From Rhodosporidiobolus odoratus (Eukaryota > Basidiomycota > Microbotryomycetes > Sporidiobolales > Sporidiobolaceae), in assembly GCA_034387635.1 (NCBI GenBank), contig JAOANU010000017.1, positions 310,001 through 374,000 on the forward strand: a stretch of 64,000 nucleotides of DNA, given 5' to 3'. A model generated the notes under the pieces. It was given only the letters and a program-made list of their open reading frames with translations. It was not told the origin of the DNA and did not search any database. This document shows, piece by piece, positions 18,418-49,172 of the stretch. Both the position numbers and the translations under genes were made by a program. How positions within the stretch are numbered: the stretch's first letter is position 1; every line of letters starts with the position of its first letter.

Positions 18418-18426
18418 CCAGAGGGG
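18418..18426. repeat. Left target-site duplication of TIR element
   Basis: CCAGAGGGG directly before the left terminal inverted repeat. The same nine bases directly follow the right end at 20787-20795. Confidence 0.85.
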
Positions 18427-18877
18427 TAGGCTCGACACAAGCCGAGAGCAAAGCTAATGAGAATAGAAAAGATTAGAAAAGAAAATGAGATTTAGATCGG
18501 AGCTTGCTCCGGCTTGTCCAAATGGCAAGGATTTGCGGGGGGTCTTGAGACGCGCCTCGTCGCCTCTTTCATCTTCAGGTCAGTTCTGCTGCTTCTTCGC
18601 TCGCTGGAGCAAAGAACGAATAAGGTCTACCGGTAGATACACCCTTCAGCTCCCCTCACGAGCAAGCTCACCTCTCTCCGTGCAGAATCCAGGTTTTACG
18701 AGCCCATCAAAGTCGCCGCTTTTCGCGCCCCCGTCTCCCTCTCGACCCTCTCTCGCCCGCTACACCTCTCTTAGAGGTTTTCTATCGCCGCGCACGCCCA
18801 AATCACCTTCATATCGACCTTCTGGCCAGCTCTCGAAGCGCCTCGTCACCATTTCGACTCCGCCGCCTCCTCCCCTT
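18427..18877 (+). repeat. Left terminal inverted repeat (451 bp)
   Basis: Matches the reverse complement of 20336-20786. It contains a spurious ORF from 18485 (MRFRSELAPACPNG) that occurs identically in the other arm, and likely promoter sequence for the forward ORF at 19060. Confidence 0.9.
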
Positions 18878-19059
18878 GGCTTTCACCTCGTCTAACCGAC
18901 GTCGTCCTCCCTCTGCCGCCTCGACGTCGCGGCCATCGTCTACACCTGCGCCCTCTCTGCTCGCCCTTTGCCGCTCACCGACCCGCTCTTCCTCTCGTCC
19001 TTTTCTCCCTTGCCGACCTTGTTGCCGGCCTCCTCCGTCGCCCGTTCCCTCGTCCCACC

Positions 19060-20162: not shown

Positions 20163-20335
20163 TGCGACGGGAGGCAAAGGGCGAAGGAGAGGCGCGGGTG
20201 GAGGGGGAAGGAGAACGAAAACAGGTGCGGGGCGTCGAGAGACGGGTAGCGGGTAAAGAGAGCACGGGTAGAGACGATGGCAGCAACGGCGAGGCGAAGG
20301 AGGGAAGACGACGGCAGTGAGACGAGGTGAAAGGT

Positions 20336-20786
20336 AAGGGGAGGAGGCGGCGGGGTCGAAATGGTGACGAGGCGCTTCGAGAGCTGGCCAGAAGGTCGAT
20401 ATGAAGGTGATTTGGGCGTGCGCGGCGATAGAAAACCTCTAAGAGAGGTGTAGCGGGCGAGAGAGGGTCGAGAGGGAGACGGGGGCGCGAAAAGCGGCGA
20501 CTTTGATGGGCTCGTAAAACCTGGGTTCTGCACGGAGAGAGGTGAGCTTGCTCGTGAGGGGAGCTGAAGGGTGTATCTACCGGTAGACCTTATTCGTTCT
20601 TTGCTCCAGCGAGCGAAGAAGCAGCAGAACTGACCTGAAGATGAAAGAGGCGACGAGGCGCGTCTCAAGACCCCCCGCAAATCCTTGCCATTTGGACAAG
20701 CCGGAGCAAGCTCCGATCTAAATCTCATTTTCTTTTCTAATCTTTTCTATTCTCATTAGCTTTGCTCTCGGCTTGTGTCGAGCCTA
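20336..20786 (-). repeat. Right terminal inverted repeat (451 bp)
   Basis: Reverse complement of 18427-18877, ending CCTA at 20786. The same nine bases that precede the left arm (CCAGAGGGG) follow at 20787-20795. Confidence 0.9.
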
Positions 20787-20864
20787 CCAGAGGGGGAACG
20801 TTGAACACGCGCGTATCTCTGCGACTTGCGACTGAGTCCCTCATTCAACCCCAATCCTGCTAAC

Positions 20865-21874: not shown

Positions 21875-22458
21875 TATCTGATGGATGTGACCCAGGGCTC
21901 ACGCGAGACGACGAGACAGAAGAGCTGGATGAACAGTGCTAGTACCGTCCGGAAAAGGCTTCGTAGCCTGCTACACTAGCCCCACTGTGATTCTTTGGCC
22001 TTCGTGCTCATCGGCTGCCGGGTCCGCTGGCAGCGCCGGCGGCCCCAACGCGAGGCAGCCGTCGGTGATGTTGGTCGATAGACGTTCAGACGTTCAGGCT
22101 CGGCAAAGTGCCGCCGGCGTATTGTGCAATGACATAACCCTTTCCGATTTTTCTCTACTTCCCTGCTTCTACCGAGCACTCGGAACGCCTATGATCAAGG
22201 TGCAATAAGGATACGTATCACGCGGGAGCAACAACAGGTAGACTACGGCCAATCGCCAAACGAGCAAAGGCGCCGCCTCGGAAGAAAAAAAAGGGGAAAG
22301 ACCAGGAAAGGGGGGAAGAACGCCGGCTGGACCTGGGGGCAGGAAGACGGCAGACAGACGGACAGCAGTGTCCTGTCAGCGAAGTGCGCGCTGTAAGGGC
22401 TTTGCGGACCAACAGGAAAGGAAAAAGATTCACCAAAGGCCCCGCGGATTTCCTCCAT
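21875..22458. other. Intergenic region, no gene seen
   Basis: About 584 bases between the MIC26/27 stop and the convergent pheromone gene stop. It has CGG/GCC-rich stretches near 22010-22060 and A-rich runs near 22280-22300. No conserved coding segment was recognised. Confidence 0.5.
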
Positions 22459-22608
22459 TCAAGCCACCGTGCAGGTGTTGTAGGTGTAGCCAACGGCCGG
22501 GTAAGATTTGGCGACCGTGCAGGTGTTGTAAGTGTAACCGACGGCGGGGTAAGACTGCGCGACCGTGCAGGTGTTGTAGGTGTATCCAACAGCGGGGTAG
22601 GCGACCAT
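22459..22608 (-). CDS. Farnesylated mating pheromone precursor, rhodotorucine-type, three tandem peptide copies
   Basis: An intronless 49-residue reverse-strand ORF starting at 22608 and ending with TGA at 22459. It consists of MVA followed by three exact copies of YPAVGYTYNTCTVA joined by QS and KS. Each copy ends in C-T-V-A, a CaaX-type farnesylation signal. Rhodotorucine A of Rhodosporidium toruloides is a farnesylated 11-mer starting Tyr-Pro and ending Cys, made from RHA precursors with tandem copies separated by TVA-type spacers; this gene has the same design with a different peptide. The three DNA copies differ at several third codon positions and every difference is synonymous, so the peptide is under selection. 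The predicted mature product is YPAVGYTYNTC with farnesyl-cysteine. The neighbouring PAK kinase supports a mating-type locus. The name RHA-like is inference. Confidence 0.92.
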   Translation of the reverse strand: MVAYPAVGYTYNTCTVAQSYPAVGYTYNTCTVAKSYPAVGYTYNTCTVA

Positions 22609-23352
22609 GGTGAACGAAAGACGAGGGTTGGGGTGGGTAAGAAGCCGGAGAGAATGCGGGAAGAGAATGGCAGGTTGAGAAGGCCGGCTAGTCGACAGGT
22701 TTCCGAGCGCAGCGCACGAGAGAAAGGCGCTGTGGAACGACTATGGGACGAGCATGCGTAGCACAGGGCGGCACGGAACTCGAATCGGTGTCGCAGCCGC
22801 CTTCAAGGAAAGAAAGGAACGTGAACGGAGCGAACAAAGGAACGGCCGGAACAAAGGATGCTTCTGAGTCGCGTTTCCTCCTTCTCGGTGCCGCGACGAG
22901 TGTCGTTCTACAAGAGGTGCCCGAGAAGAGGCTGTAGTTGAATTCAGCAGCTTGGATGTATACCTGCAGTCGGCCCGTCCTGCCACGAAACCGAGCGCTG
23001 GTTTCCGTCCTCATATCGTGGTGTTATGCACCCTTCAGCAGCATCACTGGAGTAGATCCGTGCATTCGCCGGCGCCGCGCGATCATAGATATGCATATGC
23101 ATCAAGCTTGTACTGGGTGCCTGTATAGTCGGAGGATTGAGGCTCCTGTACTAGCCATCGACTTATCTCGCACGGCAGTCGTTGACGCACTGTTAGATCC
23201 TATAGCTTGGCATATAGCAGCAGCCTGATGTGGCTTGCCTACGGGGAAGGCAGAAGACGACAGGAGACGAATCCGCGACGACGGACTGGCGGCTCCGGCT
23301 ATGCTTTGAAACGTTGACCGCGCGCACGAGACTGCGAACGTTCTAAACCGCC
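22609..23352. promoter_or_regulatory. Divergent control region: pheromone gene / PAK kinase
   Basis: 744 bases between the reverse pheromone gene start (22608) and the forward kinase start (23353). The two genes share this region as a possible bidirectional regulatory block. Two ACAAAGGA boxes lie at 22834-22841 and 22851-22858. Confidence 0.6.
22834..22858 (+). promoter_or_regulatory. Paired ACAAAGGA boxes, candidate pheromone-response elements
   Basis: ACAAAGGA occurs twice, at 22834-22841 and 22851-22858, spaced 17 bp start to start and about 230-250 bp upstream of the pheromone start codon. HMG-box regulators of basidiomycete mating (Prf1 type) are known to bind ACAAAGGGA-like sites; each copy matches eight of nine positions. 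Function is inferred. Confidence 0.45.
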
Positions 23353-25935
23353 ATGCCTGCTCAGACGGACAGCTTATATACTGCTTCGCGTACTGCTTCA
23401 ACACCGGACTACGGCTCTCTGACTCCCTCTCGCCCTGCTCCCCCCATCCCCCTCGTCAATCAGGGCTCCACCTCCTCAACTCGCGACTACAACACGACCA
23501 ATTCAACTCTATCCACCTCGACATCAATCAGTAGTCAACAATCACACTCCTACTCCGACTCGTATCGCCTTCCCACCCTCGAGTCAGCCGGTGGTGCACA
23601 GACCATCCTCAGGCGAGGCTGGGTAAACGTCAAGGAGGATGGCATTCGCGCTTGGATATGGAGCAAGAGGTGGTTGATACTGAGGGAACATACCCTCAGC
23701 TTGTACAAGAACGAGGTTCGCTGCCCGCTTCCTTTTCTTCCCTGCCTTTTCTTTCTCCTGGCCTCGTTGATTCACCCATCTGGTCGTCGCAACAGGCCAG
23801 CACCACGACGCCAACCACAACGATCCAGCTCCAGGACGTCAACTCCGTCATGCGTGAAGACCTGAAACCCTTCTGCATCTCCATCTCGAACGCGAGCCGA
23901 ACCTACTACTTCGCGCTCAAGTCGGACGAGGAGCTGTATGGGTGGATGGACGACATCTACGCTCGCTCGCCGCTCATGGGCGTATCGAGTCCGACCAATT
24001 TCGTCCACCAGGTCCACGTCGGTTTCGACCCTATCAGCGGCGCTTTCACCGGTCTGCCCGAGCAGTGGACTCGATTGCTCACGAGCAGCGCCATTACCAA
24101 AGAGGACTACGCCAAGAACCCACAAGCAGTGCTCGACGTGCTCGAGTTCTACACCGATATTCAGAAGAGGGAGCGAGACGACTACGGCTTGGGAACTACA
24201 GGTCTCGGCATGACCGATGTCGGAGCTGGCCTTCCCTCCGGCTCAGGTGCTCCCGTACGGTTCGGGGCAGGAACGGGTTTAGGCGGGCACGCTATGGCTG
24301 CCACTGCCTCTCAACCCGTGCCACGCGCCTCTCCCGGACTTTCTTCGCCAGCCGCTATGGATCGCCTGCCCCAGCTGTCGCCCAATTCGCCTCACCCACC
24401 CTCCTCAGCCATTTCGACCCCCCCCATATTGGGCCCATCTTCCAACCCTCTTCGTCCTTTCCCCCCTTCGACGCGCGATGCCGCCCCGCGACCACTAGTC
24501 CCAGGTCGAACTGCTCCTCCAGCTCCGATCTCCTCCCGCTCGCCCCCCGCCACCACAAGCCCCGGCCTCAGGCCTCTCTTGACGAGCGCCGCTTCCCGCA
24601 CCAACCTGAAGGAAGGGGGCCCTCTGCCACCGCGAGGGCCGAATGCGGGCGCTACGACCGGTGCGGGTGCGAAAGCGGTCAATGGCTTGCCCACATCGTC
24701 TGCGGCGCCTCGCACGTCGACCAGTACTGCGAGCGGGACTCCGGGGACAGCAGCCTCGGGCAAGCCGGTACCGGCGCTGAAGAAGGCGGACAAGGAGCCC
24801 GAACGGCGGATCTCGACCATGTCCGAGTCGCAGATTATGACCAAGTTAAGGTCGGTCTGCTCCAGTGCAGATCCAAACGCGCTCTACTCCAAGATCAAAA
24901 AGGTGGGGCAAGGCGCATCAGGCTCTGTCTTCGTCGCGAAGGTTCTGGCCAACAATTCCAAGGTCGCCATCAAACAGATGGACCTAAGCCACCAACCCCG
25001 CAAGGAACTTATCGTCAACGAGATCCTCGTCATGAAGGAGAGTCAACACCCTAATATCGTCAACTTCCTCGACTCCTTCCTCGTCACCGGTACCGAGCTG
25101 TGGGTGGTGATGGAGTACATGGAAGGAGGAGCCTTGACCGACATCATCGACAGCAATACGCTGGAGGAGGATCAAATCTCGTGTATCTCGAACGAAGTAC
25201 GCCCCAGCCTTTTCTAATCTAACGGTATATCTGGACTCAACATTCGGCGCTTCCCGCCCCGCAGACGTGCAAAGGCCTGCAGCATCTGCATGCCCAGAGC
25301 ATCATTCACCGCGACATCAAGAGCGACAACGTCTTGCTCGACGCCCAGGGTCACGTCAAGATCAGTACGCTTTTCAGTCTCGAATACGCCGTTTCTTCCT
25401 CCTCATCTACTTCCGAGAGGTCGAAGCTCTCACTGAATCCTACCCGATGCATCCCTCACAGCCGATTTCGGATTTTGCGCCAAGCTTACGGACCAGAAAT
25501 CGAAGCGAGCGACAATGGTCGGAACACCATACTGGATGGCGCCCGAAGTCGTGAAGCAGAAGGAATACGGCGCAAAAGTCGACATCTGGTCTCTCGGAAT
25601 CATGGCGATCGAGATGATTGAGAACGAGCCGCCCTACCTCGACGAGGAGCCGTTGAAGGCGCTCTATCTAATCGCTACGAACGGCACGCCGACGCTTAAG
25701 AAACCCGAGAAGCTCAGCAAAGAACTCAAGAACTTCCTTGCCGTGTGTCTGTGCGTTGACGTCAAGTCTCGTGCAACCGCGGACGAACTCTTGCAGGTCA
25801 GTCCTGCCCCATCCCATTCCCCCTCTCCGCGCGCCCTCGCTCACACGACTGTGCACTTCCTAGCACGAGTTCCTCAGGACAGCTTGCACGCTCTCCCGAT
25901 TAGCCCCCTTGTTGCGTTTCCGAGGCCAGCGATGA
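23353..25935 (+). CDS. STE20: PAK-family protein kinase (PH-CRIB-kinase), STE20/CLA4
   Basis: p21-activated Ser/Thr kinase acting below Cdc42/Rac in mating, polarity and morphogenesis. After a Ser/Thr-rich N-terminus, a PH domain runs from [20 protein letters not shown] across an intron (about 23716-23794) to [19 protein letters not shown]. The CRIB motif is [17 protein letters not shown] (about 23977-24030). A Pro/Ser-rich linker leads to the kinase domain: [12 protein letters not shown] (P-loop), VAIKQM (catalytic Lys), [13 protein letters not shown], then DFGFCAKL after an intron, and [11 protein letters not shown]. The last exon reads [19 protein letters not shown] and ends at 25935. PH plus CRIB is the Cla4 arrangement; the PAK gene reported beside RHA genes in R. 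toruloides is named STE20, so the symbol is used loosely. Convergent with KAP95. Confidence 0.93.
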
Positions 25936-26107
25936 AGGACTTTCTCCATGCCTTCACTTTCGTTTCTGTACCCAGTCTCGAGTACCTCGACATAGTTCCG
26001 GTTCGTGCGTGTACAAAGCGAGTTGCGCTGAATGGGAGGGTGCGATGCAAAAAACGAAACTACGAGGTAAAGCAGAGAAAAACGAAAAGAAGTGAAAGGC
26101 TTCGGCC

Positions 26108-29100
26108 TTATTGAGTTGCTCGGCGGACCATCTGCACGTTCAAACATCGTGAGAAACCTGGCTGATCAGGGGCAGACGGAAGCGCAGGAAACGCACCTCT
26201 CGTGCCCACTTCGCAACCTTTTTCGTCTCTGCGCTGCCCATCTTGGTCCTGCCGGCTTTGAGTACCTCGTCGACCCAAGGCGAGCTGAACGGCTCTTTGA
26301 GCTGTCCGTTCGGGAACGCTTCGGCAAGGTCACCTAAGAGACCGATGGCGGAACGCAGGATGACTTCGGTACGGTCTTGATCGGTGAGGGCGAGGTGTAA
26401 GAAGCCGAAGATCGTGGCGATGTGAGGCAGGAGAAGATCCGACTTGCCGCCGCTCTTCATGGAGCCGACGATACCGGTGTAAGCTTCTAGAATACCTTCG
26501 CGAAGGCCGTTGACGTAGTCGACGAGATCGAAGTTGGTCTGTGGCATATGCAGTCAGCACGATAAAGAGCAACGTGGAAAAGGATATCTGAGCGCACAGG
26601 ATCCGCTCTCATCTGTCCAGCCTGCGAGAGCACTCTTGCCGACGTATCGAGGAAAGGCTCGAAAGCGGGACCCACCGCCAACGCGATGTCACCGAAGCAG
26701 CTGAGAATAGGCGGCTTGACGCTGCGATGAAGGACGGTACTCTGTAGAGCGGCGAGGAGGCCCTCCATGAATCTTTGGCAGAAAGGAAGACTGGCCTCCC
26801 CCAGGGCACGGCAGATGTCGCCAATGAGCCCCACCGCAATAGAGCACAGCTGGTATTCTTCATACGAGCTGATCGCGCCGATAAGGTAGGGCAAGAAGGT
26901 ACTGAGGTAGTTCTGAAACCCGGTGTCGAGTGCTGCCGTGACGGAACCGACTGCGAGAAAGGCATCTTCGAGGACCGGAGACTGCTTGCCCGCTGAATCG
27001 ATGAGCTGAAGGAGAAGGGTCATGATGCGGTCGGCAAGAGGCTGAATTTCCTTTCCCAGGCGGCGGATGATGCTCTGCAGTGAAGGAAGCGAACGAGACG
27101 TAAGCGGCAGCACAGCCTGGAAAAGCAGCAAGACGGCAAAGAACGCACGGTGACGACGCTGCAGATATTGACCTGGAGCTCGTTGTAATTGTTGCGATCG
27201 TCGGCTCCGACCAACTGAGCCTGCGGGAAGGAGACCCGGTCAAGTCGTGTAAAGGCGAAAGGGGGTAATGATGCGTACCTGCATGCTCAGCAGTTGCTCT
27301 GAGCGGTCCAGTACAGCAATTACGAGCTTCGAGATGACAGGTAAGCAGTCGGCTGGAGCATGCGTCGCGAGCGTGGACAGCGCTTCGTAGGCCGAAGTGC
27401 GGGAGTTCGATTCGTTCGTTGCCCTGCGACGCGGCCCAAGTCAGTTGGGTTTCTGTAACGCCGCTGAGACGGTGGGAACGAGGCAATAGTACCTTTCAGC
27501 CAATTGAAGGAGTGCTGTGATCAGGCCGTCATAGTAGGCGCTGAGGGGACAACTATCGGCCGCCGCGTCGCCCAGCTGCTCGGCGAGGTTCATGATGGTC
27601 CAACAGCAGTTGCTGATGATGCGAGGCGACTGCTCGAGACCGGTCACGAGGGCGGAAACCATAGGAGGGAGATGCACGTCGAGCTTGATAGTCTTGACGA
27701 GAACGTCGGTGACGCGGCCAAGAGTCCACGCCGTAGTGTCGCGGACCTGAGTCGACGAATCGCCCATCATTTCGATGAGGGTCGGCAAGGCTTGCGCGAC
27801 GAGAGGAGCGAGGATCTTCTCTTCTGGCCCGTCGAGAATGGATCCAAACGCCATAACGGCTGCTTCGCGGTACCTCCAGTCGGCGCTCTTGATGTTGCCT
27901 TCGACGAACGGGATGATGGGTGATACGATGCCGTCTCCGACGCATTGAGCGAGCAGAGCCAAGCAAGTTCCTGCAGCCATCGAGACGCTCCATTCGTCGT
28001 CCGTGGCATCCTCATCCTGTTTAGTGAGCAGAAGGAGCAAGACCGGTAAGATCTCGGGCAAGGCGACTCGGGCGAAGTGTGCCGATTCGCGATCCGGCGC
28101 CTCGCTGTACTCGGCGGCTTCTTCCGCCTCAAGCGCGAGCTCGATCTCCTCGTCGCACACAGTGGACCAGAATTCGACGGCTTGTAGGGCGACGTTCTCG
28201 TCCGCGTGCTTCATGCCGAGGACGGTGAGCTGAGGAGCACATGCATCCCGGTGTCAGCGCTGCTGATTTGCTATGGAAAACGATAGGCTTACACCGAAGA
28301 GCGCGCGCTCCATGTAGAATTTCATGTAGTCGTAGTAGAGATGCATGATCTTGACAAGGCAAGCGAAAGCTGCGACTTGAACATCGGACGAAGGCGACTG
28401 AGTTGCTTCACAGACAACCTGCATAATATAGTTGCGCTCGCCCTGCAAATGACGAGGATGCGGATAAAACTGACTTGCTCAGCAGGAAGTGAGAGGGGAG
28501 AAGAAGAGATGATTGGCGTACCTCTCGGCCGAAGTTCTCGCGCACGAATTCGAGAGAATTGTAGAGGGCATTGATTGCTGCGAGCTGGACATCGACGCTG
28601 CGAAGCAAGATTAATGGGCATTCTCGGTGACAGAGCGGAGCAAGCGTGCGCACCTGGTCTCTTCCTTGCGTGCGCCTTGTACAACCGCAGTGAGGATCTC
28701 GTTGGACTGGGCAGCAAGGATCTCGGGTTTCTGCAGCCGCGATTCCAAGTCAGGTGAAGGCACTCGTGAAGGGAGGAGAGCGACAAGCAGTACTCACGAT
28801 GCTTTCGCAGATGTAACCAATGGTCTGCAGCGTGGCTTGGCGGAGCGGAGGATTCTCATTCCGGCTAGCCAGCTCGAGCAATTGACCTACGAGGCCCGTC
28901 CACATGCCGGCGGGCAACTCAACGGCGGCGACGGCGGCCACGACTTGAGCGGAAACGTTGCGAGCGCCACGGTCGGCTGCGGCCAATGTGGACAGGGCAG
29001 CGTGCTTTAACTTGTCGCGAGTTGCGGGATCGAGGCTCTTCCAGCGGTTGGCGTACTCTTCCTGACGAGGGGTTTCGCGTGCTGTGAGGGCGTTTTTGAT

Positions 29101-29280
29101 GGCGAGGCCGGCGGCATTGCGAATATGAGAAGGGGCCTGGTCACTGGCGAGCGTGTCTGCGAGTGCGACGAGGTAGGCGGAGGGGTTGGATGAGAGGAAC
29201 TGCGTGAGTTGGCTCGTGGCAGCTTCGCGTTCTTGCTGATTGGGTGAGAGAGTAGCTGCGAGTACTGCAGAGGCGTCCAT
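26108..29280 (-). CDS. KAP95: Importin beta-1 (karyopherin KAP95)
   Basis: Nuclear import receptor that carries importin-alpha/cargo through nuclear pores. The start at 29280 ([16 protein letters not shown]) gives the N-terminal region [20 protein letters not shown], and [18 protein letters not shown] is the typical first HEAT repeat. Further HEAT repeats follow through about ten exons, including [54 protein letters not shown] and [16 protein letters not shown], with PSDVQ-type linkers between. The penultimate exon ends AKWAREV; a tiny last exon encodes MVRRATQ and stops at 26108. Total near 860 residues, normal for KAP95. Divergent from LSM7 (323 bp apart) and convergent with the kinase gene. 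KAP95 is also known as a gene linked to the pheromone-receptor region in Sporidiobolales (from memory). Confidence 0.94.
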
Positions 29281-29603
29281 CTCGGCTGCAATAGGCTTGA
29301 ACAACGAGAAGACGATCAGGTATCCAAGAGACGAGAGAATTGGTGAATACAAACACGCTCCGACATCAAAGCTAATCTAGAATACAACCTCCATCACTAC
29401 GTACACTGTATATGTACCCTTGCCGTGACGACCATATCTCCCAATTCGGACAGACTCGACGTTGTCGCCTGTCGATCAACCGTCCAGCTACTTGACCATC
29501 ACTACAAACGGCGGCAACCCCGTGTTCATTCCCTTTCACTCACTCTTCATCCATAAATCTCAGTCCTTCCGATCCCCCTTGCCCCGCTTCGTTCTCAACT
29601 GGT
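29281..29603. promoter_or_regulatory. Divergent promoter KAP95 / LSM7
   Basis: 323 bases between start codons 29280 (reverse) and 29604 (forward). No specific site was recognised. Confidence 0.5.
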
Positions 29604-31997: not shown

Positions 31998-32366
31998 TGC
32001 TACGTCTGGCTCGACGAGCACGACTTACTCCCCAGATCGCTAAGTCGTTATTTCTTATATTCCTTCCTCCAGTTGACTCTTTCTCTCTCTCTCTCTTTAC
32101 GCTCACTGCTCCCTTGACGCTTCCTGCAGACGGACGTCCTCGGACATCGTTCGGTAATGTTGAGTGATCGGAGGGAAGTCGACTTGGACTTGTACTTTTG
32201 GTAGAGAAGCTTCACCGCTACACCTCCCCGTCCGTCTGTCGAATACTAGGCTCGAATCACTGTTGATTGCTTTCGTAGCGGGAAGCTTGAGCAAGTTCCG
32301 ACCCCTCTCCTCAACCCTCTGCTAGACTACCGACATCGCCTCGAGCTTGAAGTCGTGGGTCCTGCA
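31998..32366 (+). repeat. 5' LTR of element A
   Basis: 369 bp, begins TGCTACGTCTGG and ends GGGTCCTGCA. A CT-dinucleotide run lies near 32082-32098. Confidence 0.9.
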
Positions 32367-32690
32367 CTTTTTTAACAGTCGAGCAATCGATATCTACCGT
32401 TCGGATCTTATCCGACACTACCCACCATTTCCTCCAACTCCGACGACTCCGAGGTCGCTCCTGTCCCGGCGAACCACTCCTCTTCGTCCGGAAGTTCTTC
32501 CCATTCTTCCTCATCCCTATCCTCTCTCTCGTCGTCGCCTCTCCCCAACCCGCCTCGACGCTCTACCCGCTTCGCCCGCTCCCCCTCGTACTCCCCGTCC
32601 GATCTCAACACCTTCTTAACTGCCCAACGCTCTCTCTCTCGCTCTACTCGGTTCGCCAACCTTCCGCCTCTCCCCTCGTCTTCCTCCAGC

Positions 32691-34181
32691 ATGTCTCTCC
32701 CCGTTCCCCTCGGCACCGTCCTCTCCGACCCCGCCGATGCCTGGCAGGGCGAGGACGCACAATCCGCCGTCTCGTCCGTCCGGTCTAACAACTCGCTCCG
32801 GCGACGCGAACAAGCCAACGTCGAATTCCTGGCTGCCGCCGAACGACGCCGTAGGATATTCGAGGAGCAGGAGGCACGGATGAGGCGGGAGATGGACGAG
32901 GCTGTGAGTGCGGCCGATGTGAAGTCGGAGCGGGAACGAGGGAATCCGGCCCCTTTGGGTTCCGCCGTCGAAGAAGAGGCTGAGGTCATGCAGCGTCGGT
33001 TGGACGACCTCAGACACGAGGCTGGTGCTCTTGAGCGCATGATCGCGCATCGCACGGTCGGCGTCGTCGCTCCGCAACCGCACCCGCTCTCGCAATCCGT
33101 CTCCTCGTCCCCCTCCTCTTCGCTTCCTCTCGCGTCGTTCGGTGTCAAGATCAAGGTCAAGGAGCCAAAACCTTGGACGGGGGAGTTTGACATGGTCAAG
33201 CGAGAAGGGTGGATTAAGACCGTTGCGTTATACTTCGCGGGTCTGGAGCTGGACGTGAACGCAACTCTAGATGAGCATCTCACCCCTTTCCCTTTCTATA
33301 CTCTCCGTTCTCTGTTCTCTCCCGATGCTGCTAACGGATCAATCTCGCCTCAGGCTTGGTTTGACGCTCGCAACAGCAGGATTCCCTTTGTCTCGGTCGA
33401 GGATGTCTTCAAGGCTCTCCGTTCCCACTGGGCGGATGATCACGCCGCCGAGCAGGCGCTGTCACGCTATCGTGCGGCACGTCAAGGTTCCTTGCGTGCT
33501 CGCGATTTCGGTGCAGCGCTCGATGCTTTGGCAGACGCATGCTTCGATCGCAAGATCGACGACCTCGACCGCAGGACAACCTTCGTCGGGGGCCTTCAGC
33601 CCTCGGTGCAAGACTTTGTTCGGACGCAGCTTGCGTCGTTGAAGGCTCTGGGCAAGCAGGACGCAACCTTTGATGAGGTCGTCAAGATTGCCGCATTGAC
33701 CGATGGATTGGCGTTGTTTTCGTCTAAGAAGACTTCTTCTCTTTCATCGGGGAATGTGGGCTCTACCTCCAAGAAGAACAGCGCTAACGATCCTTCTTCC
33801 TTGTCTCCTAAGGTCTCCTCTTCCCCTTCTTCTCCCCGCGGCCCCTCGACGTGGACTCAAGACGCCCAGAGTTGGCAGTCATCGCACCCGGTTGCCTCAA
33901 AAGCTGACTGGTTTGATGCGCGTCCGCGTCCTACTACGAAACCAGTGCGATGCTACAACTGTGGCGATCTTGGGACACACTACTCGAGGGCCTGCACGGC
34001 GTTGAGGAGGGACCCCAAGGGGGTGGTTGTGGCAATGTTGTCTAAGCTGCGTATCTCTTCCTTGTCCGCTTCTCCATCTCCTCCCGTTGCTTCTTCCTCT
34101 GCTCCTACGGCTCCGGCGATCGCTTCGGCGAACCGCTTCGAAACCCTTAGCGAGGACGAGGGAAAAGCGGACGAGGAGTAA
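32691..34181 (+). CDS. Gag-like protein of element A
   Basis: Structural capsid-type polyprotein of 496 residues. A coiled-coil-like segment (RRIFEEQEARMRREMDEA) precedes the retrotransposon gag core (IKVKEPKPWTGEFDMVKREG, ARQGSLRARDFGAALDALAD, FVGGLQPSVQDFVRTQ). A single zinc knuckle CYNCGDLGTHYSRAC (CX2CX4HX5C as spaced here) lies near the C-terminus at about 33950-33996. Close to the stop, GGGAAAA at 34160-34166 is in the gag frame as G-GGA-AAA, the classic slippery pattern for -1 frameshifting. The pol frame is -1 to gag and open across this point. Confidence 0.88.
   Translation: MSLPVPLGTVLSDPADAWQGEDAQSAVSSVRSNNSLRRREQANVEFLAAAERRRRIFEEQEARMRREMDEAVSAADVKSERERGNPAPLGSAVEEEAEVMQRRLDDLRHEAGALERMIAHRTVGVVAPQPHPLSQSVSSSPSSSLPLASFGVKIKVKEPKPWTGEFDMVKREGWIKTVALYFAGLELDVNATLDEHLTPFPFYTLRSLFSPDAANGSISPQAWFDARNSRIPFVSVEDVFKALRSHWADDHAAEQALSRYRAARQGSLRARDFGAALDALADACFDRKIDDLDRRTTFVGGLQPSVQDFVRTQLASLKALGKQDATFDEVVKIAALTDGLALFSSKKTSSLSSGNVGSTSKKNSANDPSSLSPKVSSSPSSPRGPSTWTQDAQSWQSSHPVASKADWFDARPRPTTKPVRCYNCGDLGTHYSRACTALRRDPKGVVVAMLSKLRISSLSASPSPPVASSSAPTAPAIASANRFETLSEDEGKADEE
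34160..34166 (+). promoter_or_regulatory. Candidate -1 ribosomal frameshift site (GGGAAAA)
   Basis: Matches X-XXY-YYZ in the gag reading frame, 15 bases before the gag stop codon. The -1 frame from here runs open into protease and beyond. The same heptamer in the same frame occurs in element B at 41030-41036. Confidence 0.6.
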
Positions 34182-37100
34182 GGCTACCCCCACCTTGCTC
34201 CTCGCCGTCTAGTACCCGGGGCACTTTCCTTCTTCCCACTGATGACTCAGCGGAGCCAGCGGCTCGGGCTTCATGCCCTTGCAGCGAACTTATTGCTCTT
34301 AGCGTTTCTGAGGGATGGGAGCGACCAACCCAGGAGGACTTCCGGTCTTTCCTTTCGTCTCGGCGGAGCCGGACAGATACTCCTCCTCGTTCCCATTCCC
34401 TTTCTTCGCCACCATCGTTTTCTTCTCCCTTACCTACCCTGGCTGCTGTAGTGGAGGACACGTTGACTTCTATTGCTCCTGTAGAGACGGATGCAACGCC
34501 AAACCTTTCTCCTAGCTTGTCTACGGCTAGTGCAGGAGAAGTGGAAGCCTCTAGCTACGCCTCGACGGAAGCGCAGGCCGAGCCGGTCTCCACCAAGGTG
34601 GCCAGTAAGCCAAGGAAGTCGCGACGGTCTAAACGCTCTTCTAAGTTCCCTTCCTTGCCCCCTAATATAGCATCTCTCCCGCTTACTCTTCCTTCCTTGT
34701 TCGGGTCGAAATCGACAACTCAAGTGAAGGGGGATACCCTCATCGATTCCGGCGCTCAGGCGGACATCCTATCCCCGGAGCTCGTCACTCGTCTGGGACT
34801 TGACGTGCGACGGCTCGTCGCGCCAGTCCATGCTGACCTCGCCGCCGATGGGAACCAAGTCCGCCTGTCCCTCTTCGTCACAACTTCCGTCGCCGTCGGC
34901 AAGATTCGTCATGCCGAGCGCTCGTTCTTCGTCCTACCCCTCCCTTCCGGCATCGACGCTATCCTGGGTGTACCGTGGCTCAAAGATTCAGGTGTGGCCG
35001 TCTCGGCTACGTCTCTCTTTGTCGCGCCGACTGGTCCTTCGGAAGAGATTTACGACTTCGTCCAAGGTCAATTCGTCGAGCAGCCGGACGCCAACTTCGA
35101 GTCGCTCGGGTACACTCGTCGCGACATGACCGACCTGGAGTTAGATTCCTTCGTCCTCTGCGCTATCCAGGCGGGGGTCGAGGCCGACGTCGTCAAGGAG
35201 GTCATCGAACGTATTGAGTTTGAACCCCATAACCCTCTGTTGAAGTTCCCGACGATGATGACCCTACTGACGATCTCTCTGCGGAAGAGGCGCAAGCGGA
35301 GCTGGAGGCTATGCTTAGCGAATTCGACGATGTTTTCGTTGATTCTTTGCCAGGTCCACCTCCCCTTCGTCCCGTCAACCACAAGATCCATCTGAAGGAC
35401 GTCGAAAAGAAGATTCGACCGCATGCGATCCGCATGCCAGACCGGTACAAGGCGCAGTGGACCGCCCATCTCCGCAAGTTCGTCGACTCGGGATTCTGGT
35501 CGCCGGCTGCCCTGGACTCCGCCTGCGCCATGTTCGCCGTGCCGAAGCACGATCGGACGCAGGCCCGCTTCGTCATCAACCTCAAGCCTCGGAACGAGAA
35601 CACCATCAAGATGGCTTTGCCCATTCCGGACATGAAGGAGGTCCGGTACCGGGTAGTGAGCAAGAAGTATCGTTCCAAGCTTGATTTCAAGCAGGCATAC
35701 GAGCAGATCAGGCTCACAGCCGAGTCTGTCGGACTATCGGGCTTTGTGACGCCTAATGGGACTTTCGTCTCTCGGGTTATGCAACAGGGCGATACGAATG
35801 CGCCTGAGACGATGCATCAAGTTTGCTACATGATGTTCTCTAAGGCAGTAGGACGATTCCTCGATGTCTTTTATGATGACGTTCTTGTGTACTCAGATAC
35901 TCGACGTGCCCATCTCCGCCATCTCCGTATCATCCTCACCTCCCTTCGCCATTATCGCTTCTATCTCTCTCGCGCCAAGGTCGAGTTCTTCGCCACCTCG
36001 ATGGAGGTACTGGGAGCAGTAGTGGATGATGATGGCGTTCACGTGGTCCCAGACAAGTGGGATGCGGTGAAGCGTTGGCCCACCCCTAAGAACGCCAAAG
36101 ACGTTCTTCGGTTCATGGGAACCGTTCAATGGATGTCCGATCATCTTCCGCATCTTAACGAGATTGTGGCGGTATTGACTCGACTGACGGGGAAGACTGA
36201 GTGGGACTGGACTCCGGCGTGCGACATGGCTTTCGATCTGCTAAAGTCCCTCGTTCCACGTTCCCTTTCCCCCTTGAACATCTCCACACTCGATGACGGC
36301 ACTGAGCGTCTCTTCCTCTTTACAGATGCCTCGGTCTTCGGCTGCGGGGGATGGCTAGGTCAAGGAAGCTCTCGTGATACGGCTCGCCCTTTCCGATTCT
36401 TCTCGGCCAAGTTAAATCCCGCACAGCGCAACTACTCGACCACCGACCAGGAGCTCCTTGCCGTCTTCGTGGGAACGAAGAAGATGCATGAGCATCTGGT
36501 TGGCTTCCGGTTCACGGTAGTCTGCGACCATGAGCCGCTGAAGACTTGGCTGACGCAGCCGCCAAAGGCAACGCGTCGCCACGTTCGCTTGTGGGAGGTC
36601 CTAGCCCAGTACGATTTCGACTGGGAATTCATCCCTGGTGTCAAGAACGTCCTGGCAGACGCGTTGTCGAGGCTGGCGGAGTTGGACGAGGAGGAACGCT
36701 TGGGTTTACCCGACGCTCCCGAACCAACTCCGTCGTCGGAGGATCCCGAACCTTTCTCTTCCACGCTAACCGAACGCGCTCACGTTGTTTTTGCATCTCT
36801 TGTTGCCTCCCTCTCCTCCGCTTCCGCTCCCTCCGCCACTGCCCTCACGCTCGCTCCCATCGCCGTTCCTGACCTCACGTCTTCCCTCCCCTCGTCCTTC
36901 CTCTCTTCTCTCCGTTCGTCACTCCAAACCGACGCTCTCACCTCTAAGATCCTCGCTGCACCTGCGTCGCATTCAGGTTTTGCCGTGGAAGATGGGCTCG
37001 TGTTCCGAGCGGATGACGGTGGATGGAAATTGGTCCTTCCGGCTGGTCGTCACCGTCGGGAGGATGGGAGGGATGCAGGATTAATGGAGACGGTGGTCGC

Positions 37101-38514
37101 GAGGTGCCACGAGCTGGTAGGGCACCTTGGCGCGAGTAAAACGCTGAGTTATACGCGGCGGTTCTTCTGGTGGAAGAGCATGGCGAGCGACGTGGTGGAC
37201 TTCTGCCGGTCGTGCGAGCCGTGCAACCGCAACAAGGCGCCCACTACCGCGCCGTACGGGTTCCTACATGCCTTCGACCCTCCGCCTCGATGCTGGTCGC
37301 GAATCGGCATGGACTTCGTCGTCGGGCTCCCCCCTTCCCTCTTCCTTTCTTCTCCCGTCGACTCCATCCTGACGGTGACGGACTACCTCTCCAAGATGGT
37401 GGTTCTTATCCCCCTCAAATCCACCGCTACCGCCGCTGAAGTCGCCGACGCTTTCCACATCCACGTCTTCCGCCGCTTCGGCCTCCCTTCCTCCATCGTT
37501 TCCGACCGCGACCCCAAGTTTACATCCGCCTTCTGGGCGTCTCTCAACCGGAAAATTGGTGTCACGCTCGCCATGTCTACCGCGGCGCACCCTCAAACTG
37601 ACGGGCGCGCTGAAGTAACGAACAAAACGGTCGGCCAGGTGTTGCGAGTGTTGTGTGAGGATTCTCCTGACGATTGGGCGTCGAAGTTGGTGGCCTGCGA
37701 GTTCGCCATCAACTTGGCGACGGCGGCGGCCACTGGGCTAGCGCCCTTCGAGGTGGTTTACGGCTTCCTGCCTACCGTGTGGCCGGCGGGGAGTTGGGAT
37801 GCAGCAGGGAACTTGGCGGCGGAAGGCTTTGCAGAGCGCACGAGGCTTTATTCCCTCGCAGCCACTGACACCATTATTGCTTCTCGAGTAGCCATGACTC
37901 ATCAGGAGAACCGCCATCGACGCGACGATACCGACGTCTTCAAGGTTGGTGACAAAGCCTACCTCTCTTCCGCCGGCCTCCGCTTCCCGAAAGGCCTCAC
38001 ATCCAAATTTATTCCCCGCTACATCAGTCCTTACACCATCTCCCGCGCCTTCCCCAGCTCTTCGAACTATTCGCTCGACCTTCCCCCTCACCTCCGCATT
38101 CACAACAAGTTCCACGCTTCTAAACTTCGCCCCCACTTCCCGAATGACGACTCTCGCTTTCCTCACCGTTCGTTCGACGCGCCTCCTCCCGTTATCGCGG
38201 CCTCCGACGCAGCCGAAGCGGAGTATTTGGTGGAAAAGGTGGTGGCGGATAAAGTGGTGCGAGGTCGTCGTCACTTCAAGGTGCGGTATCTGGGGTACTC
38301 GGCGAGTGAGGACCAGTGGCGTCCGGAAGCCGAGCTTAAGGCAACTGCAAAGGAGACCCTGGATGCCTACCTCGCGCTCAAAAAGGTACAAGGTAAAGGT
38401 GCTCCGGCGCGCGCGAGGCTATCAGGGCTTCTCTTTTCTCTGCGGGCGTCCTTCTCAGGGGAGGTGAGTGCTACATCTGGCTCGACGAGCACGACTTACT
38501 CCCCAGATCGCTAA
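34166..38514 (+). pseudogene. Pol polyprotein of element A, broken by a frameshift
   Basis: Pol with aspartic protease (TLIDSGAQADILS, about 34736), reverse transcriptase ([13 protein letters not shown], then [10 protein letters not shown] for the YxDD box near 35875), RNase H ([25 protein letters not shown]), integrase HHCC zinc finger (HELVGHLG...[11 protein letters not shown]), the DDE core ([35 protein letters not shown]) and a C-terminal chromodomain ([28 protein letters not shown]). The reading frame shifts between protease and reverse transcriptase near 35242, where comparison with element B indicates loss of one base; the RT part then continues in another frame (35311-38514). The last codons run into the 3' LTR. 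Inactive as it stands unless the lost base is a sequencing error. Confidence 0.85.
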
Positions 38515-38816
38515 GTCGTTATTTGTTATATTCCTTCCTCCAGTCGACTCTTTCTCTCTCTCTCTCTTTACGCTCACTGCTCCCTTGACGCTTCCTGCAG
38601 ACGGACGTCCTCGGACATCGTTCGGTAATGTTGAGTGATCGGAGGGAAGTCGACTTGGACTTGTACTTTTGGTAGAGAAGCTTCACCGCTACACCTCCCC
38701 GTCCGTCTGTCGAATACTAGGCTCGAATCACTGTTGATTGCTTTCGTAGCGGGAAGCTTGAGCAAGTTCCGACCCCTCTCCTCAACCCTCTGCTAGACTA
38801 CCGACATCGCCTCGAG
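38469..38816 (+). repeat. 3' LTR of element A, first part
   Basis: Aligns with 31998-32345 with no gaps and three substitutions. It ends TCGAG, which is repeated at 45711-45715 after element B. Confidence 0.92.
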
Positions 38817-39180
38817 TGCAAGGAAGTGTCCTCGCACCTCTCGTCCTTCGCTTCTAAGTCTGTCTTCTCAGTCCTATCGCTAGATGATACTGATTATTAG
38901 TTTTCCCCGCAGACTATCACTTACTCATGTCTGCGGTTGACTTGGGAAGGAGTAGTAGACGGTCACTCAACATGGGCTGAGCTGTAGCGGTTCTCTTCCC
39001 CTTCTTTTCCCTTTTTTTCTTTAGCGCTCTATTCTCTACTACTGTTGTTCTACGGAATAATACCCAGTTCACTGTCTTCGGTGACCGTCTGCCCTCGCCT
39101 TCGCTCAGGCAACCTCCTTCCGACTTCTTACCGCAAGTGACCTGTCCTCGCCATCCGGCTTGAAGACGGTGCCCCTTGCA
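38817..39180 (+). repeat. 5' LTR of element B
   Basis: 364 bp, TGCAAGGAAGTGTCC to GGTGCCCCTTGCA; near-identical to 45347-45710. Confidence 0.92.
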
Positions 39181-39470
39181 CTTTTTTGACAATTCAAGGT
39201 TATTAAACCGTCAAGATTACATCCTCACCCCTCTCCTCCCTCGGACCGTCGTCCCGGTCATCCGATCGACCTCCTATCTCTCATTCAACTTCTTCCTCCA
39301 CTTCCTCATCCTCTGCCGGATCATCTCTCCAGTCGCCCACCCCGGTTATCCTTGGTCTGCGTCAGTCTCGACGTCGCCAGCAACAACCTCCGTCCTTCAC
39401 CGCATCCGATCACGAAACCTTCATTACCGCCCACCGTTCCATTCCCCGTTTCGTCCGCTTCGCCAATAAC

Positions 39471-41027
39471 ATGGCCCCTCCAATCGTCTCCGCCGAGGAT
39501 CCGCCCGAGGTTCCCCTTGATGCGGGCTCACCCCACTCCAACCCGGCCGCCGCCTGGGCGTCTACCAAGCCCCCACCTTCCCATCGGTCGGTTCGTTCCG
39601 CTACTTCAGCGGCGCGGGCGGTCTTCCTGGACGCCCTGGAGAAGAGCAAAGAGATGCGTTGGCGGCAGTTTCAGGAGCGTGAGAAGGAATTAGAGCAATT
39701 GGCTCAAGACGAGTTAAGGCGCATGAAGGCAGAGTCGGAGGCGGGGTCTCAAGCTACGGCCCCAACGGTTGCCGGCGATGCAGGCGATTTGGAGGTACTG
39801 GTTAGGCAGAAGGCGGAGGCGTTGGCCAAGGCGGACATGCTTGAGCGGATTATTCAGGCTAAGAATCAGTCTGCTGGTCCTCGTCGTCCCCCTACGGTTC
39901 CCCCTCGGCCGCAGCCGGTGGTTCAGACTAACGCCTTACCCTCGTCTCCCGAGTCCGAGTATGAGACACTCGTGACTCCCCCTCCCTCTCCTAACGCTCC
40001 TGTCGTCTCCCGTTTTACAGACATCTCCCTCAAGAAGGTGTCGGCTCCTAAGGCGTGGCAAGGCGACTTCAACTACAGACGTCGGGAGGCTTTCGTCAAG
40101 TCGGCCATTGGTTACTTGGCGTCCGTCGGCGTCGCCTTGGACAAGGAGATCTCAGCCTCGTGGACGCCTCAAGCTCACTTGGCGTTACGTTCCCTCTTTT
40201 CTTCCGAGTCCAAGGGCTCGTTTCTTTCCGCAGTCGATTGGTTTGATGCCATCGACCGCGAACACACTCACATCACTCCGCAGTTGATCTTTGCAGAGCT
40301 TCGTGCTCACTGGGTTGATGATGCCGCCGCGGAGGATAATTTCCGGCGGTATCGTCAAGCCAAGCAAGGTTCTCTGAAGGTGCGAGAGTTTGGGGCATTG
40401 GTCGAGCAGTTGGCGTTCGACTGCTTCGACCGAGTAGTCTCGGACGAGGATCGCGCCTCAACTTTCCGCGAAGGATTGAATGCGGGCACTAAGGATTTTA
40501 TTCTCCAGGTTCAAGCAGCCCAATCGGCGGCGTTCGGAACTCCCGCGAGGATGGGATTCCGGAAGTTGGTGCAGGTCGCCTCGGCGTACGATTCCGTCGA
40601 GTCGCGCCGATCTACATCTTCTTCTGCTCCCTCTTCTAACAAGAACGCTCGCTCGAACGCTAACTCTTCCTCTTCTCATTCCTCACCTTCTTCGTCTTCC
40701 CCGTCCTCCGCACCTCCTTCCTCTTCCTCGCCCTCGTCGCAGAAGAGCAAGTCGTGGGTGGAGGACGCGCAAGACTGGCAGTCGAGCCACGCCGTCAAGG
40801 AAAAGGATCGTTGGTTCCGCAAGGACACCCGTCCCACGTCTAGTGCGGTGAGATGCTATAACTGCTGTCGCGAAGGGTTCCATGTCTCTTCGGGTTGTCC
40901 CTACTCGCGTGGTTATCCTCGCACGGTGGTTATCGCGGGAATTCAGCCGAAGCTAAGTCCCTCTTCTCCATCTACCCCTTCTCCCGAGGCTGCGGTCGAG
41001 GAGGAGGATCTGGTAATTTCCTCTTGA
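39471..41027 (+). CDS. Gag-like protein of element B
   Basis: 518 residues. A basic/acidic helical region (RWRQFQEREKELEQLAQDEL) precedes the gag core (KAWQGDFNYRRREAFVKSA, KQGSLKVREFGALVEQLA). A Ser-rich linker follows, then one zinc knuckle CYNCCREGFHVSSGC near 40855-40900, where the second glycine position is replaced by Cys compared with element A. It ends LVISS and TGA at 41025-41027. The pol ORF overlaps its end in the -1 frame. The GGGAAAA heptamer found before the stop in element A lies here one codon after the stop. Confidence 0.85.
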   Translation: MAPPIVSAEDPPEVPLDAGSPHSNPAAAWASTKPPPSHRSVRSATSAARAVFLDALEKSKEMRWRQFQEREKELEQLAQDELRRMKAESEAGSQATAPTVAGDAGDLEVLVRQKAEALAKADMLERIIQAKNQSAGPRRPPTVPPRPQPVVQTNALPSSPESEYETLVTPPPSPNAPVVSRFTDISLKKVSAPKAWQGDFNYRRREAFVKSAIGYLASVGVALDKEISASWTPQAHLALRSLFSSESKGSFLSAVDWFDAIDREHTHITPQLIFAELRAHWVDDAAAEDNFRRYRQAKQGSLKVREFGALVEQLAFDCFDRVVSDEDRASTFREGLNAGTKDFILQVQAAQSAAFGTPARMGFRKLVQVASAYDSVESRRSTSSSAPSSNKNARSNANSSSSHSSPSSSSPSSAPPSSSSPSSQKSKSWVEDAQDWQSSHAVKEKDRWFRKDTRPTSSAVRCYNCCREGFHVSSGCPYSRGYPRTVVIAGIQPKLSPSSPSTPSPEAAVEEEDLVISS

Positions 41028-44000
41028 GAGGGAAAAGCCGGAGGCGTGTAAGGGCAAAGAAGCCTTACATGCCTATTGAGACTTCCTTATCTTCTTCAGA
41101 TTCCTTTCCCATTCCCTGTGATGAAGGTCTCGAGGGCGTCTTGTCACCCGCGTGCGTATGCGCTAAGGTGTACCAGCGTTTCCTTTCTGAGGGCGGATCC
41201 GTTCTATCGTTGGATCAATGGCGTCATTGGGCATCTAATGTACCACTGACTACTCCTTCCCACGTTCGAACAGATCCTCCCGAGACCCCTGCCTCTTCCC
41301 TTCCCTCGTTCCTTCCTCCTTCGCGGTCCGACAGTCCTTTTCCGGATACCGGCGCTTCGTCGGCTTTGGTAGCTACCTTGTCTCCTGTCGAGCCTTCGGG
41401 TGTAGATGATTGTGAGGAAGGTGAAACTAAACCGTTTCGCGCCGAAACCCCTCTGATTGCGCCCGAGACTCGGGACTCATCGAGGAGAAAGCGTCGTTCC
41501 GCTGCTAAGTCGCATCCCTTTGAACCTCAGGTTGCGCCTCAGCCGCTGACCGTCCCGGTTCGTCTTGGTGAACAGCAAGCGACTGCATTGGTCGATTCTG
41601 GTTCGCAAGCGGACGCCCTATCGTCGGCTTTCGCCCATCGACTTGGCCTTCCTTTCCGTCGCCTCTTGGCCCCAGTCCATGCAGACTTGGGTGCCGATGG
41701 GCATGCCGTTCGCCTCAGTATTTACGTTGAGGTGTCGGTAGAAGTCGGGGACTTGGTCGTTCCCCGCCGTTCTTTCTTCGTCGCTCCCTTACCCGAGGGA
41801 ATCGACGCCATTCTGGGCGTACCCTGGATGAAGACCACCAACACCGCTGTGTCCGCAACCTCGCTATTCGTGGTACCCGTCGGTCCGTCCGAGGACGTTT
41901 ACAACTTCTTGACGGGCACCTTCAACCTTCAACCTCGTCGAAATTTCGACGATCTCGGTTTCGTCGACCGTCCAATGACGGTCGACGAGGAGCATCGCTT
42001 TGCAGTATGCGCGGTGCTTGCGGAGGTTGAAGGTATCGAAGATTTCGTGGACTTTGAGCCGCACAATCCGCTGCTCGATGTCGATGAAGATGATCCTTCC
42101 CGTCCTGACCTCTCCGCTGAGGAGGCTGAGTCTTTGCTCGCCTCTCTCCAGGCACAATTTGCTGACGTCCTAGTTGACATTCTACCCGATAGGCTACCTC
42201 CCCACCGGCCTATCGATCATTCCATCGACTTGGTAAACGACGAACTCAAGATTCGTCCCAAGGTGATCGGGATCCCCGCCCGGTACGACAAGCAATGGCG
42301 CGCTCACGTACTCAAGTTCAAGGAGTCGGGCCATTGGTCTCCCATGGCGTTGGACTCCGCCTGTTCCATGTTCTCGGTTCCGAAGCACGACCCTTCCGAG
42401 GCGCGATTCGTGATCAACCTCAAACCGCGCAACATGAATACTCGGAAACGTATCAGTCCCATTCCCGATATGAAGGGAGTTCGTTTACGACTTGGCGCCC
42501 ACAGATACCGAACCAAGCTCGACTTCAAAAATGCCTACGAGCAAATTCGCTTGGCACTGGAGTCGGTAGCTAAGTCCGGTTTCGTGACGCCTTCGGGCAC
42601 TTTCGTATCTCCGGTGATGCAGCAAGGCGATACTAATGCGCCTGATACTATGCACCGAGTGTGTGCGATGATGTTCGAGAAAGCCCTTGGGCGTTTTCTC
42701 GACGTTTTCTATGACGACGTGTTTATCTACTCACACACTCGTCGAGCGCATCTCCGTTACTTGGAGATTGTATTCACGACTCTTCGTCATTACAGGTTCT
42801 TCCTGTCTCGGACGAAGGTCGAGCTCATGGCTCCTTCCCTCAAGGCACTTGGTTGCATCATCGACGATGCCGGCGTCTCGGTGGATCCGTCTCAGTGGGA
42901 CGCCGTCCAGAACTGGCCTACACCTCGCAATAAGAAGGATATCATGAGGTTCTCGGGAACCGTGCAATGGATGGGTGATCACCTTCCCCATCTGAACGAA
43001 CTAATGGCGCCCATCTCCCGCTTAACAGGGTCCGTCGACTGGAATTGGTCCCCGGCCTGTCAAGCGGCATTCGAGCTCGTTAAGTCCCTGGTTCCCCGTA
43101 CTCTGTCCCCTCTCAATCTCGCCGCCTTGGAAAGTGGCGAGGAGAAGCTCTTCATTTTTTCCGATGCTTCCATACTTGGGTGTGGCAGTTGGATCGGGCA
43201 GGGGACCAGTCGTGACACTGCGAGGCCGTTCCGTTATCACTCAGCTAAGTTTAACTCAGCGCAGCGCAACTATCACACAACCGACCAGGAGCTTCTTGGC
43301 GTCCTCGATGCTTGTCTCAAGTATTGGGAGCTGATCCTGGGTTGGGACGTTGTGGTCGTTACGGATCACCAGCCTTTGCGTACCTATTGGGACCAAAGTC
43401 CTAAGTTAACTCGACGGCATGTTCGGCTGTGGGAGACTCTCTCCCAATTCTCTTTGGTCTGGGATTTCATTCCCGGTTGTCTCAACGTCTTTGCCGACGC
43501 GCTCTCGCGTCTTGCGGAGCTATGTGCTGACGAAGAATGGCTAACCCTTCCGTCCGCTCAAGAGCCACCTCCTGCAGATGACGATGCTGCGCCATCCCCG
43601 GTCGAACCGTCCGCGAGAATGGTTCTTGCGGTTCTCGCCCTTCAGGCGGCTACCGGTCATTGTTCCGAAGCGGTGGTAGCTCCGGTGGTAGCAGGGGAGA
43701 GACCGGACGAGTCCTCTTCCACTCGCTCCCTCCTACTGTCCCTACCGTCCGCTCTGTCTTCCTCATTACCCACGGCTCTGCCGCTTGACCCTCTGGGTCG
43801 CAAGGTGCTGGCGGCCCCAGCGCAGTTTCCCCTCTTTGTCGTTCAAGAGGGGATACTATTCCGTACTGATGGCGAGTTGCCTCAACTCTACATTCCGCAG
43901 GGTCGTCTTTTGACCAAGGATGGTTCTCCTTCGTTTGTCGAGAGCGTTCTCAAGCAATCACACGACGCTCTCGGACACTTCGGAGCCGTCAAGACACTGG

Positions 44001-45430: not shown

Positions 45431-45710
45431 TTTTCCCCGCAGACTATCACTTACTCATGTCTGCGGTTGACTTGGGAAGGAGTAGTAGACGGTCACTCAA
45501 CATGGGCTGAGCTGTAGCGGTTCTCTTCCCCTTCTTTTCCCTTTTTTTCTTTAGCGCTCTATTCTCTACTACTGTTGTTCTACGGAATAATACCCAGTTC
45601 ATTGTCTTTGGTGACCGTCCGCCCTCGCCTTCGCTCAGGCAACCTCCTTCCGACTTCTTACCGCAAGTGACCTGTCCTCGCCATCCGGCTTGAAGACGGT
45701 GCCCCTTGCA
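45347..45710 (+). repeat. 3' LTR of element B
   Basis: Near-identical to 38817-39180. The start is set by alignment and is good to within one base. Confidence 0.9.
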
Positions 45711-48219: not shown

Positions 48220-48617
48220 TTCTATCTTGAGAATTATATGGAAGGAGTCGTGCTGTTGGGACGTGTGAGTTCTCTCTGTTGCTATGCTATGTATTTTGCA
48301 CTTATGACCCGCTTTCTCCTAGCCGCTCGGTATCACAGACATCACTTGTGCTGGTGGAGAAACCTTGTCTCTGCGCAAAAAGGCAAAGACTGCTTACTAT
48401 TAGGAAGACGGGCCCCTCCTCTTCCAAATGATCTCCCATCTTCACCGTCTTCATCATCTTTCTGTTGTTCTCCATGGTGTATTACTAGAAATGGGAATAC
48501 AACTTCCGAATTTCTTGTCTACTTTGAAGTTTGCACCGCCGCTTGTTGGCATTTTCCCCAGTCATCTTCCTTTCTTCCTTTCCTCTTGTTTACCATTTGT
48601 AGCGATATGAAGCCTCG

Positions 48618-48718
48618 CTAGAGGCGAGAGAGAACAAAGTGTGAACGGTGTGTGGTACAGCAGTCGACTAATGAAGGACTAGTTACCTAGAGGCGAGAGA
48701 GAACAAAGTGTGAACGGT
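48618..48718. repeat. Direct repeat pair, about 33 bp
   Basis: CTAGAGGCGAGAGAGAACAA and the following 13 bases (through GTGTGAACGGTG) occur twice, starting near 48619 and 48688, about 68 bp apart. Confidence 0.8.
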
Positions 48719-49081: not shown

Positions 49082-49172
49082 ACGCTTCAGCTGAGTTAGA
49101 TTGCACGCCAGGTTCGTTCTGCTTCTCTTATTACTGTAGGACGCTTCAGCTGAGTTGGATTGCACGCCAGAC
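49082..49172. repeat. Direct repeat pair, about 31 bp
   Basis: ACGCTTCAGCTGAGTTRGAT followed by TGCACGCCAG occurs near 49081 and 49140, with one difference (A/G), about 60 bp apart. Confidence 0.8.

Follow-up and report, generated by a model that had tools for sequence, protein, structure and literature searches.

A short open reading frame on the minus strand, here called R1 (22459..22608, 49 codons and a stop), is with a probability of about 0.95 a gene of the RHA kind, encoding the precursor of a MAT A1 lipopeptide pheromone in a red yeast of the Sporidiobolales, most likely a Rhodosporidiobolus species. Positions without a prefix refer to the window, i.e. the whole stretch of 64,000 nucleotides that was analyzed (C17:310001-374000, C17 being the contig of the window in a genome of 24.8 Mb and 45 contigs). 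An earlier note on this DNA had proposed a rhodotorucine-type precursor, and this proposal is borne out by the a1 relatives of STE3, by MAT A1 neighbors, by two paralogs and by the silent-only divergence of the peptide cores. The expression, processing, prenylation and receptor partner of R1, and the genus, are points that we infer from sequence.

The reading frame itself was correctly recognized beforehand: it is real, lies on the minus strand and extends from ATG to TGA through three head-to-tail repeats. The start context is TTCACCATGG, and the closest in-frame stop 5' of the ATG is 135 bases away. The translation has the layout MVA-YPAVGYTYNTCTVA-QS-YPAVGYTYNTCTVA-KS-YPAVGYTYNTCTVA, which in full is MVA-YPAVGYTYNTC-TVA-QS-YPAVGYTYNTC-TVA-KS-YPAVGYTYNTC-TVA. 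Three 48-nt repeats follow one another head to tail in the DNA (22463-22606); against the reference copy, two show identities of 83% and 79%. Read along the minus strand, unit 1 (22558..22599) is preceded by MVA and followed by the linker QS (22552..22557), unit 2 (22510..22551), the linker KS (22504..22509) and unit 3 (22462..22503), which has a C-terminal CaaX-type box at its end; each of these units reads YPAVGYTYNTC-TVA. After the start Met the protein consists of exactly three 16-residue units, composed of VA, QS or KS, then YPAVGYTYNTC, then TVA. The repeat unit of 14 residues given in the earlier note is to be corrected to 16, as the QS and KS linkers had been overlooked. An Rfam scan of the window returned no match.

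Among the three 33-nt cores of R1, five sites are variable (all of them third codon positions), corresponding to at least six changes and to no change in the protein. With a silent fraction of 0.23-0.28 under random change, the chance of six out of six independent random core changes being silent is 1.6e-4 (kappa 1), 2.9e-4 (kappa 2) or 5.1e-4 (kappa 4); the test takes the changes as independent and covers R1 only, the sister genes carrying one replacement. The TVA codons after the cores likewise show silent differences only. The statement that all differences between the copies are synonymous therefore stands for the cores and the TVA codons and falls for the linkers, which differ at the amino-acid level (QS vs KS).

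Searching the whole 24.8 Mb genome with the precursor protein produced five matching stretches. They fall in three places, every one of them on C17. Two five-unit pheromone genes (C17:380888-381133 and C17:381840-382085) are located outside the window, on the same strand of the same contig as R1 and 48-49 kb away from it. Their coding sequences are identical, with boxes and linkers in the order TVA-QS, TVA-KS, TVS-KS and TVS-KS and a fifth unit, YPAVGCTYNTC, followed by TVA. This fifth unit, in which Tyr6 is replaced by Cys, is the one unit in eight with a replacement in the two distinct coding sequences, and a minor variant pheromone YPAVGCTYNTC is predicted from it. In the three-way alignment R1 equals the five-unit genes minus 96 bases (two units, in-frame), plus scattered single changes. 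Common to the three genes is a duplicated cassette of promoter, gene and downstream part (22094..22932, minus strand, for R1), with aligned pieces 94-99% identical; all three cassettes are direct copies. Over the 311 bases upstream of R1 the identity to one sister is 99%; for 259 of these bases the identity to the other is 98%. BLAST pieces spanning upstream and coding sequence showed identities of 98.7% and 98.3%, those spanning coding and downstream sequence 94-95%, and between the two five-unit cassettes the identity is 99.8% across 825 bases. Codon by codon, each of the three cores of R1 is identical to the core of the same number in the five-unit genes, which indicates that the units diverged before the genes were copied, unless gene conversion took place.

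The in-frame gap of two units and the scattered single changes would also suit a shrunken, redundant or non-expressed copy, with the five-unit genes beside STE3 doing the work, as would the position of R1, which is separated from STE3 by some 52 kb that include two retrotransposons. Such a state of R1 is improbable, however, since the gene is open and in frame, its promoter is kept at the identities given above, and all three of its units belong to the majority type, the sole replacement-bearing unit being found in the five-unit genes.

The kept promoter contains two AACAAAGGA copies 17 bases apart, approximately 225-250 bases 5' of the R1 ATG (22833..22858). A count over the 124,000 bases examined gave six occurrences of AACAAAGGA, a possible pheromone-response element, against 0.57 expected, and all six sites are accounted for by pairs 17 bases apart in the three pheromone promoters; as these promoters are mutual copies, the enrichment amounts to one observation, found after looking. 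The paired sites are possible candidates for HMG-box (pheromone-response) sites. Two counts speak against the response-element reading: ACAAAGGGA, presumably the response element of smut fungi, has its one occurrence in the region away from the pheromone genes, and ACAAAGGAA has three further occurrences elsewhere. The 500 bases upstream of STE3 contain one ACAAAGG in the opposite sense, and no ACAAAG was found within 500 bases upstream of STE20.

A search of the genome for STE3 detected one locus with two matched stretches, which are its exons. Spliced by hand, the gene (C17:385079-386363) has four exons and encodes 367 residues; it is located 3 kb past the five-unit genes. A shorter splice of 322 residues matched Pfam STE3 across nearly the whole profile (E 1e-86). 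With this 322-residue query, 38 related proteins were found among the 7,994 scored candidates, i.e. those sharing most words. The top-scoring relative, from Rhodosporidiobolus azoricus, is named 'Mating pheromone receptor a1' and shares 73% of its residues with the 322-residue query; for the A1 receptor of R. toruloides the identity was 74% over 93% of the query. The top three matches are all named a1/A1 receptors; ten of the 38 matches carry a Sporidiobolales species name (five a1/A1, four hypothetical, one with an incomplete name), and no a2 label occurs among the 38. In a tree of the 367-residue protein and the top 14 of the 38 matches, the protein is placed beside R. azoricus with a support of 99/97; the full-length identity between these two is 71% over 366 columns.

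The STE20-type PAK kinase gene next to R1 (23353..26000, plus strand, 3' end approximate) has PBD and kinase domains over the cut-off and a PH match under it; its ATG is 745 bases from that of R1, and the two genes are divergent. The importin beta (KAP95) gene follows on the minus strand (26140..29370, extent approximate), with domain evidence (TPR_IMB1, HEAT) from 26490-28253 only. Along C17 the order is R1, STE20 kinase, importin beta, two LTR retrotransposons and other genes, and beyond the window ABC1 kinase, mitochondrial carrier, the two five-unit genes, RNA polymerase subunit, L6, STE3 and putative L18ae. Pfam matches over the cut-off were obtained for STE3, L6, ABC1, the STE20 kinase and importin beta; the match for RNAPOL was slightly below it (22.9 vs 24 bits). 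The gene beside STE3, which we name RibL18ae from its translation, gave no Pfam match. A search of the genome for Homeobox_KN, with three candidates scored, yielded one match, on a different contig (C20); in S. roseus the two loci are more than 800 kb apart, as given in passages of PMC2916851.

The neighborhood of R1 resembles the published MAT A1 layout. Gene order by itself is no proof of mating type: S. ruineniae has a pheromone gene of the A2 type between RibL18ae and RibL6 (passages of PMC3236058). That the gene marks the mating type, as claimed at the outset, is upheld for A1 by the a1/A1 names of the top STE3 matches together with the STE20/KAP95 and RNAPOL-RibL6-STE3-RibL18ae neighbors. 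A short repeat protein unconnected with mating, e.g. a structural or secreted peptide, is hardly credible: Tyr-rich short repeats are, as general knowledge, found in other proteins, but R1 combines its repeats with a terminal CTVA box, the MAT A1 neighborhood, paralogs near STE3 and a likeness to rhodotorucine A.

Several larger repeats were observed on this part of C17. The two adjacent LTR retrotransposons (31998-45710), with reverse transcriptase, integrase and chromodomains, are inserted inside the MAT A1 region; their end repeats measure 348 and 367 bases, with 99% identity. An inverted repeat pair of about 5.4-5.8 kb (46877-52656 in the window and C17:388317-393733; pieces 97.5-97.8% identical) encloses a block of 25.7 kb with the five-unit genes, STE3 and their neighbors, R1 being outside; recombination between the arms could invert this block. 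A smaller inverted repeat (18425-18956 / 20257-20788) has 532-base arms that are 96.4% identical and separated by 1.3 kb; each arm holds, roughly 100 bases in, the start of an open frame that runs inward, and both frames begin with MQTPA.

Regarding maturation, the 49-residue precursor would be cut into three units, the Cys that ends up in the C-terminal CTVA box of each unit would be farnesylated, and TVA would then be removed, possibly followed by methylation. The residues before Tyr-Pro (VA, QS, KS) would be trimmed by aminopeptidases, and this trimming would stop at Tyr-Pro because the bond before proline resists most aminopeptidases. The predicted product is three copies of farnesylated YPAVGYTYNTC, which would be exported and recognized on MAT A2 cells by their STE3 receptor; the two five-unit sister genes may contribute a higher dose and the minor variant. 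The calculated [M+H]+ of the farnesylated peptide is 1455.72 as free acid and 1469.74 as methyl ester, and that of the variant 1395.67 and 1409.68, respectively. For Cryptococcus, passages of PMC9296135 suggest that having several genes and units increases the output of pheromone.

Without Met, the precursors have 48 = 3 x 16 and 80 = 5 x 16 residues, and the unit can be written as X-[Ala/Ser]-YPAVG[Y/C]TYNTC-TV[Ala/Ser]. This n x 16 layout suggests a cut behind TVA/TVS, by which each internal Cys would come to lie in a true C-terminal CaaX box; as they stand within the chain, the internal CTVA boxes require an extra cleavage by some enzyme before they are C-terminal. By the rule for farnesyltransferase, the X of the CaaX box is Ala or Ser. 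A view of the precursor as a series of 16-residue prenylation substrates, each complete in itself, cut behind TVA/TVS and trimmed to Tyr-Pro, with Lys no cutting signal, is put forward tentatively, at somewhat less than even odds. If the cut is made behind TVA/TVS, the linker sequence would be free to vary and the Tyr-to-Cys unit would represent a second pheromone species. Cleavage at the linkers by a Lys-directed (trypsin-like) protease, and not behind the CaaX box, appears unlikely; it agrees with the KS linkers (three of four in the five-unit genes, one of two in R1), whereas all three genes have QS, without a basic residue, as their first linker, and the Ser after the linker Lys would be left on the peptide by a cut behind Lys.

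As to the enzymes behind such cutting and prenylation, domains of the prenyltransferase beta family, which is not specific to CaaX processing, were found at three loci in the genome. ICMT gave one partial match, with a model that also matched five of 14 control genomes and belongs to a family holding other enzymes. The exon-by-exon search of the genome, with one candidate scored, gave no Rce1-like match, which we take as a limit of that kind of search. The maturation enzymes of rhodotorucine-type precursors were reported as not known in 2010 (passages of PMC3068285); with the n x 16 layout and a non-basic linker, the maturation route of these precursors becomes testable.

A comparison of the precursor with the protein database gave 92 candidates with shared words, none of them at E values up to 10. 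A three-unit rhodotorucine control, for which leader and spacers were guessed, also matched nothing in the database, so that the missing homologs of the precursor say little. Viral and bacterial/archaeal contigs contained 4 and 38 pattern-matching stretches, respectively, and no relatives, as expected for a fungus. Neither 'YPAVGY' nor 'YPAVGYTYNTC' was found in the running text of the papers searched, and no pheromone sequences of Rhodosporidiobolus were seen there; sequences of this sort frequently appear in figures and supplements, the key one being Additional file 3 of PMC3236058 with an alignment of red-yeast Rha2 precursors. The kind to which R1 belongs, the RHA pheromone precursors, is already known, and the exact peptide may already be recorded.

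Rhodotorucine A, an 11-mer with a Tyr-Pro start and a Cys end which we take to be YPEISWTRNGC, and the 11-mer of R1 share five of 11 residues in a gapless alignment (Y1, P2, T7, N9, C11; shuffle P 0.0005, and 0.004 when Cys was left unshuffled). The earlier note had likewise described a layout like that of RHA precursors with other core residues. The remaining six of the 11 core residues differ; Arg, Trp and Glu are absent from the peptide of R1, and YPAVGYTYNTC has no basic residue at all. Several genes are said to encode rhodotorucine A, going by the title of Akada et al. 1989, and the presence of several precursor genes is a further likeness to R. toruloides.

In R. toruloides the rhodotorucine A precursors are likewise tandem pheromone copies with CaaX-like spacers, as described in passages of PMC3068285; the QS/KS linkers in the spacers of R1 are compared with that species by description. 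The features of RHA-type genes recur here: tandem peptides with CaaX-like spacers (three and five units; TVA/TVS, then QS/KS), an 11-residue core from Tyr-Pro to Cys with a terminal CaaX-type box (YPAVGYTYNTC, TVA-stop), several gene copies (three genes) and an STE3.A1 region with conserved neighbors. The embedding of RHA genes in inverted repeats, a non-defining trait noted in two species, is not seen for the three direct-copy cassettes, although the inverted repeat of about 5.4 kb does surround the two five-unit genes and STE3.

The closest likeness in gene order is to Sporobolomyces sp. IAM 13481, where RHA1, RHA2 and RHA3 are located in the STE3.A1 region, STE3.A1 is flanked by RibL18ae and RibL6/RNAPOL, and RHA2 was amplified by primers in STE20 and KAP95 (passages of PMC3236058). 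The RHA genes of this strain and of S. salmonicolor are likened to R1 by gene order (passages of PMC3236058 and PMC2916851). Unlike in Sporobolomyces, the three genes are here direct copies in the same direction, and unlike RHA2, R1 is placed on the side of STE20 that faces away from KAP95. For a red yeast close to Rhodosporidiobolus azoricus, R1 and STE3 together supply a candidate pheromone, a receptor gene and the probable mating type, and they add one more lineage for the study of joint pheromone-receptor divergence.
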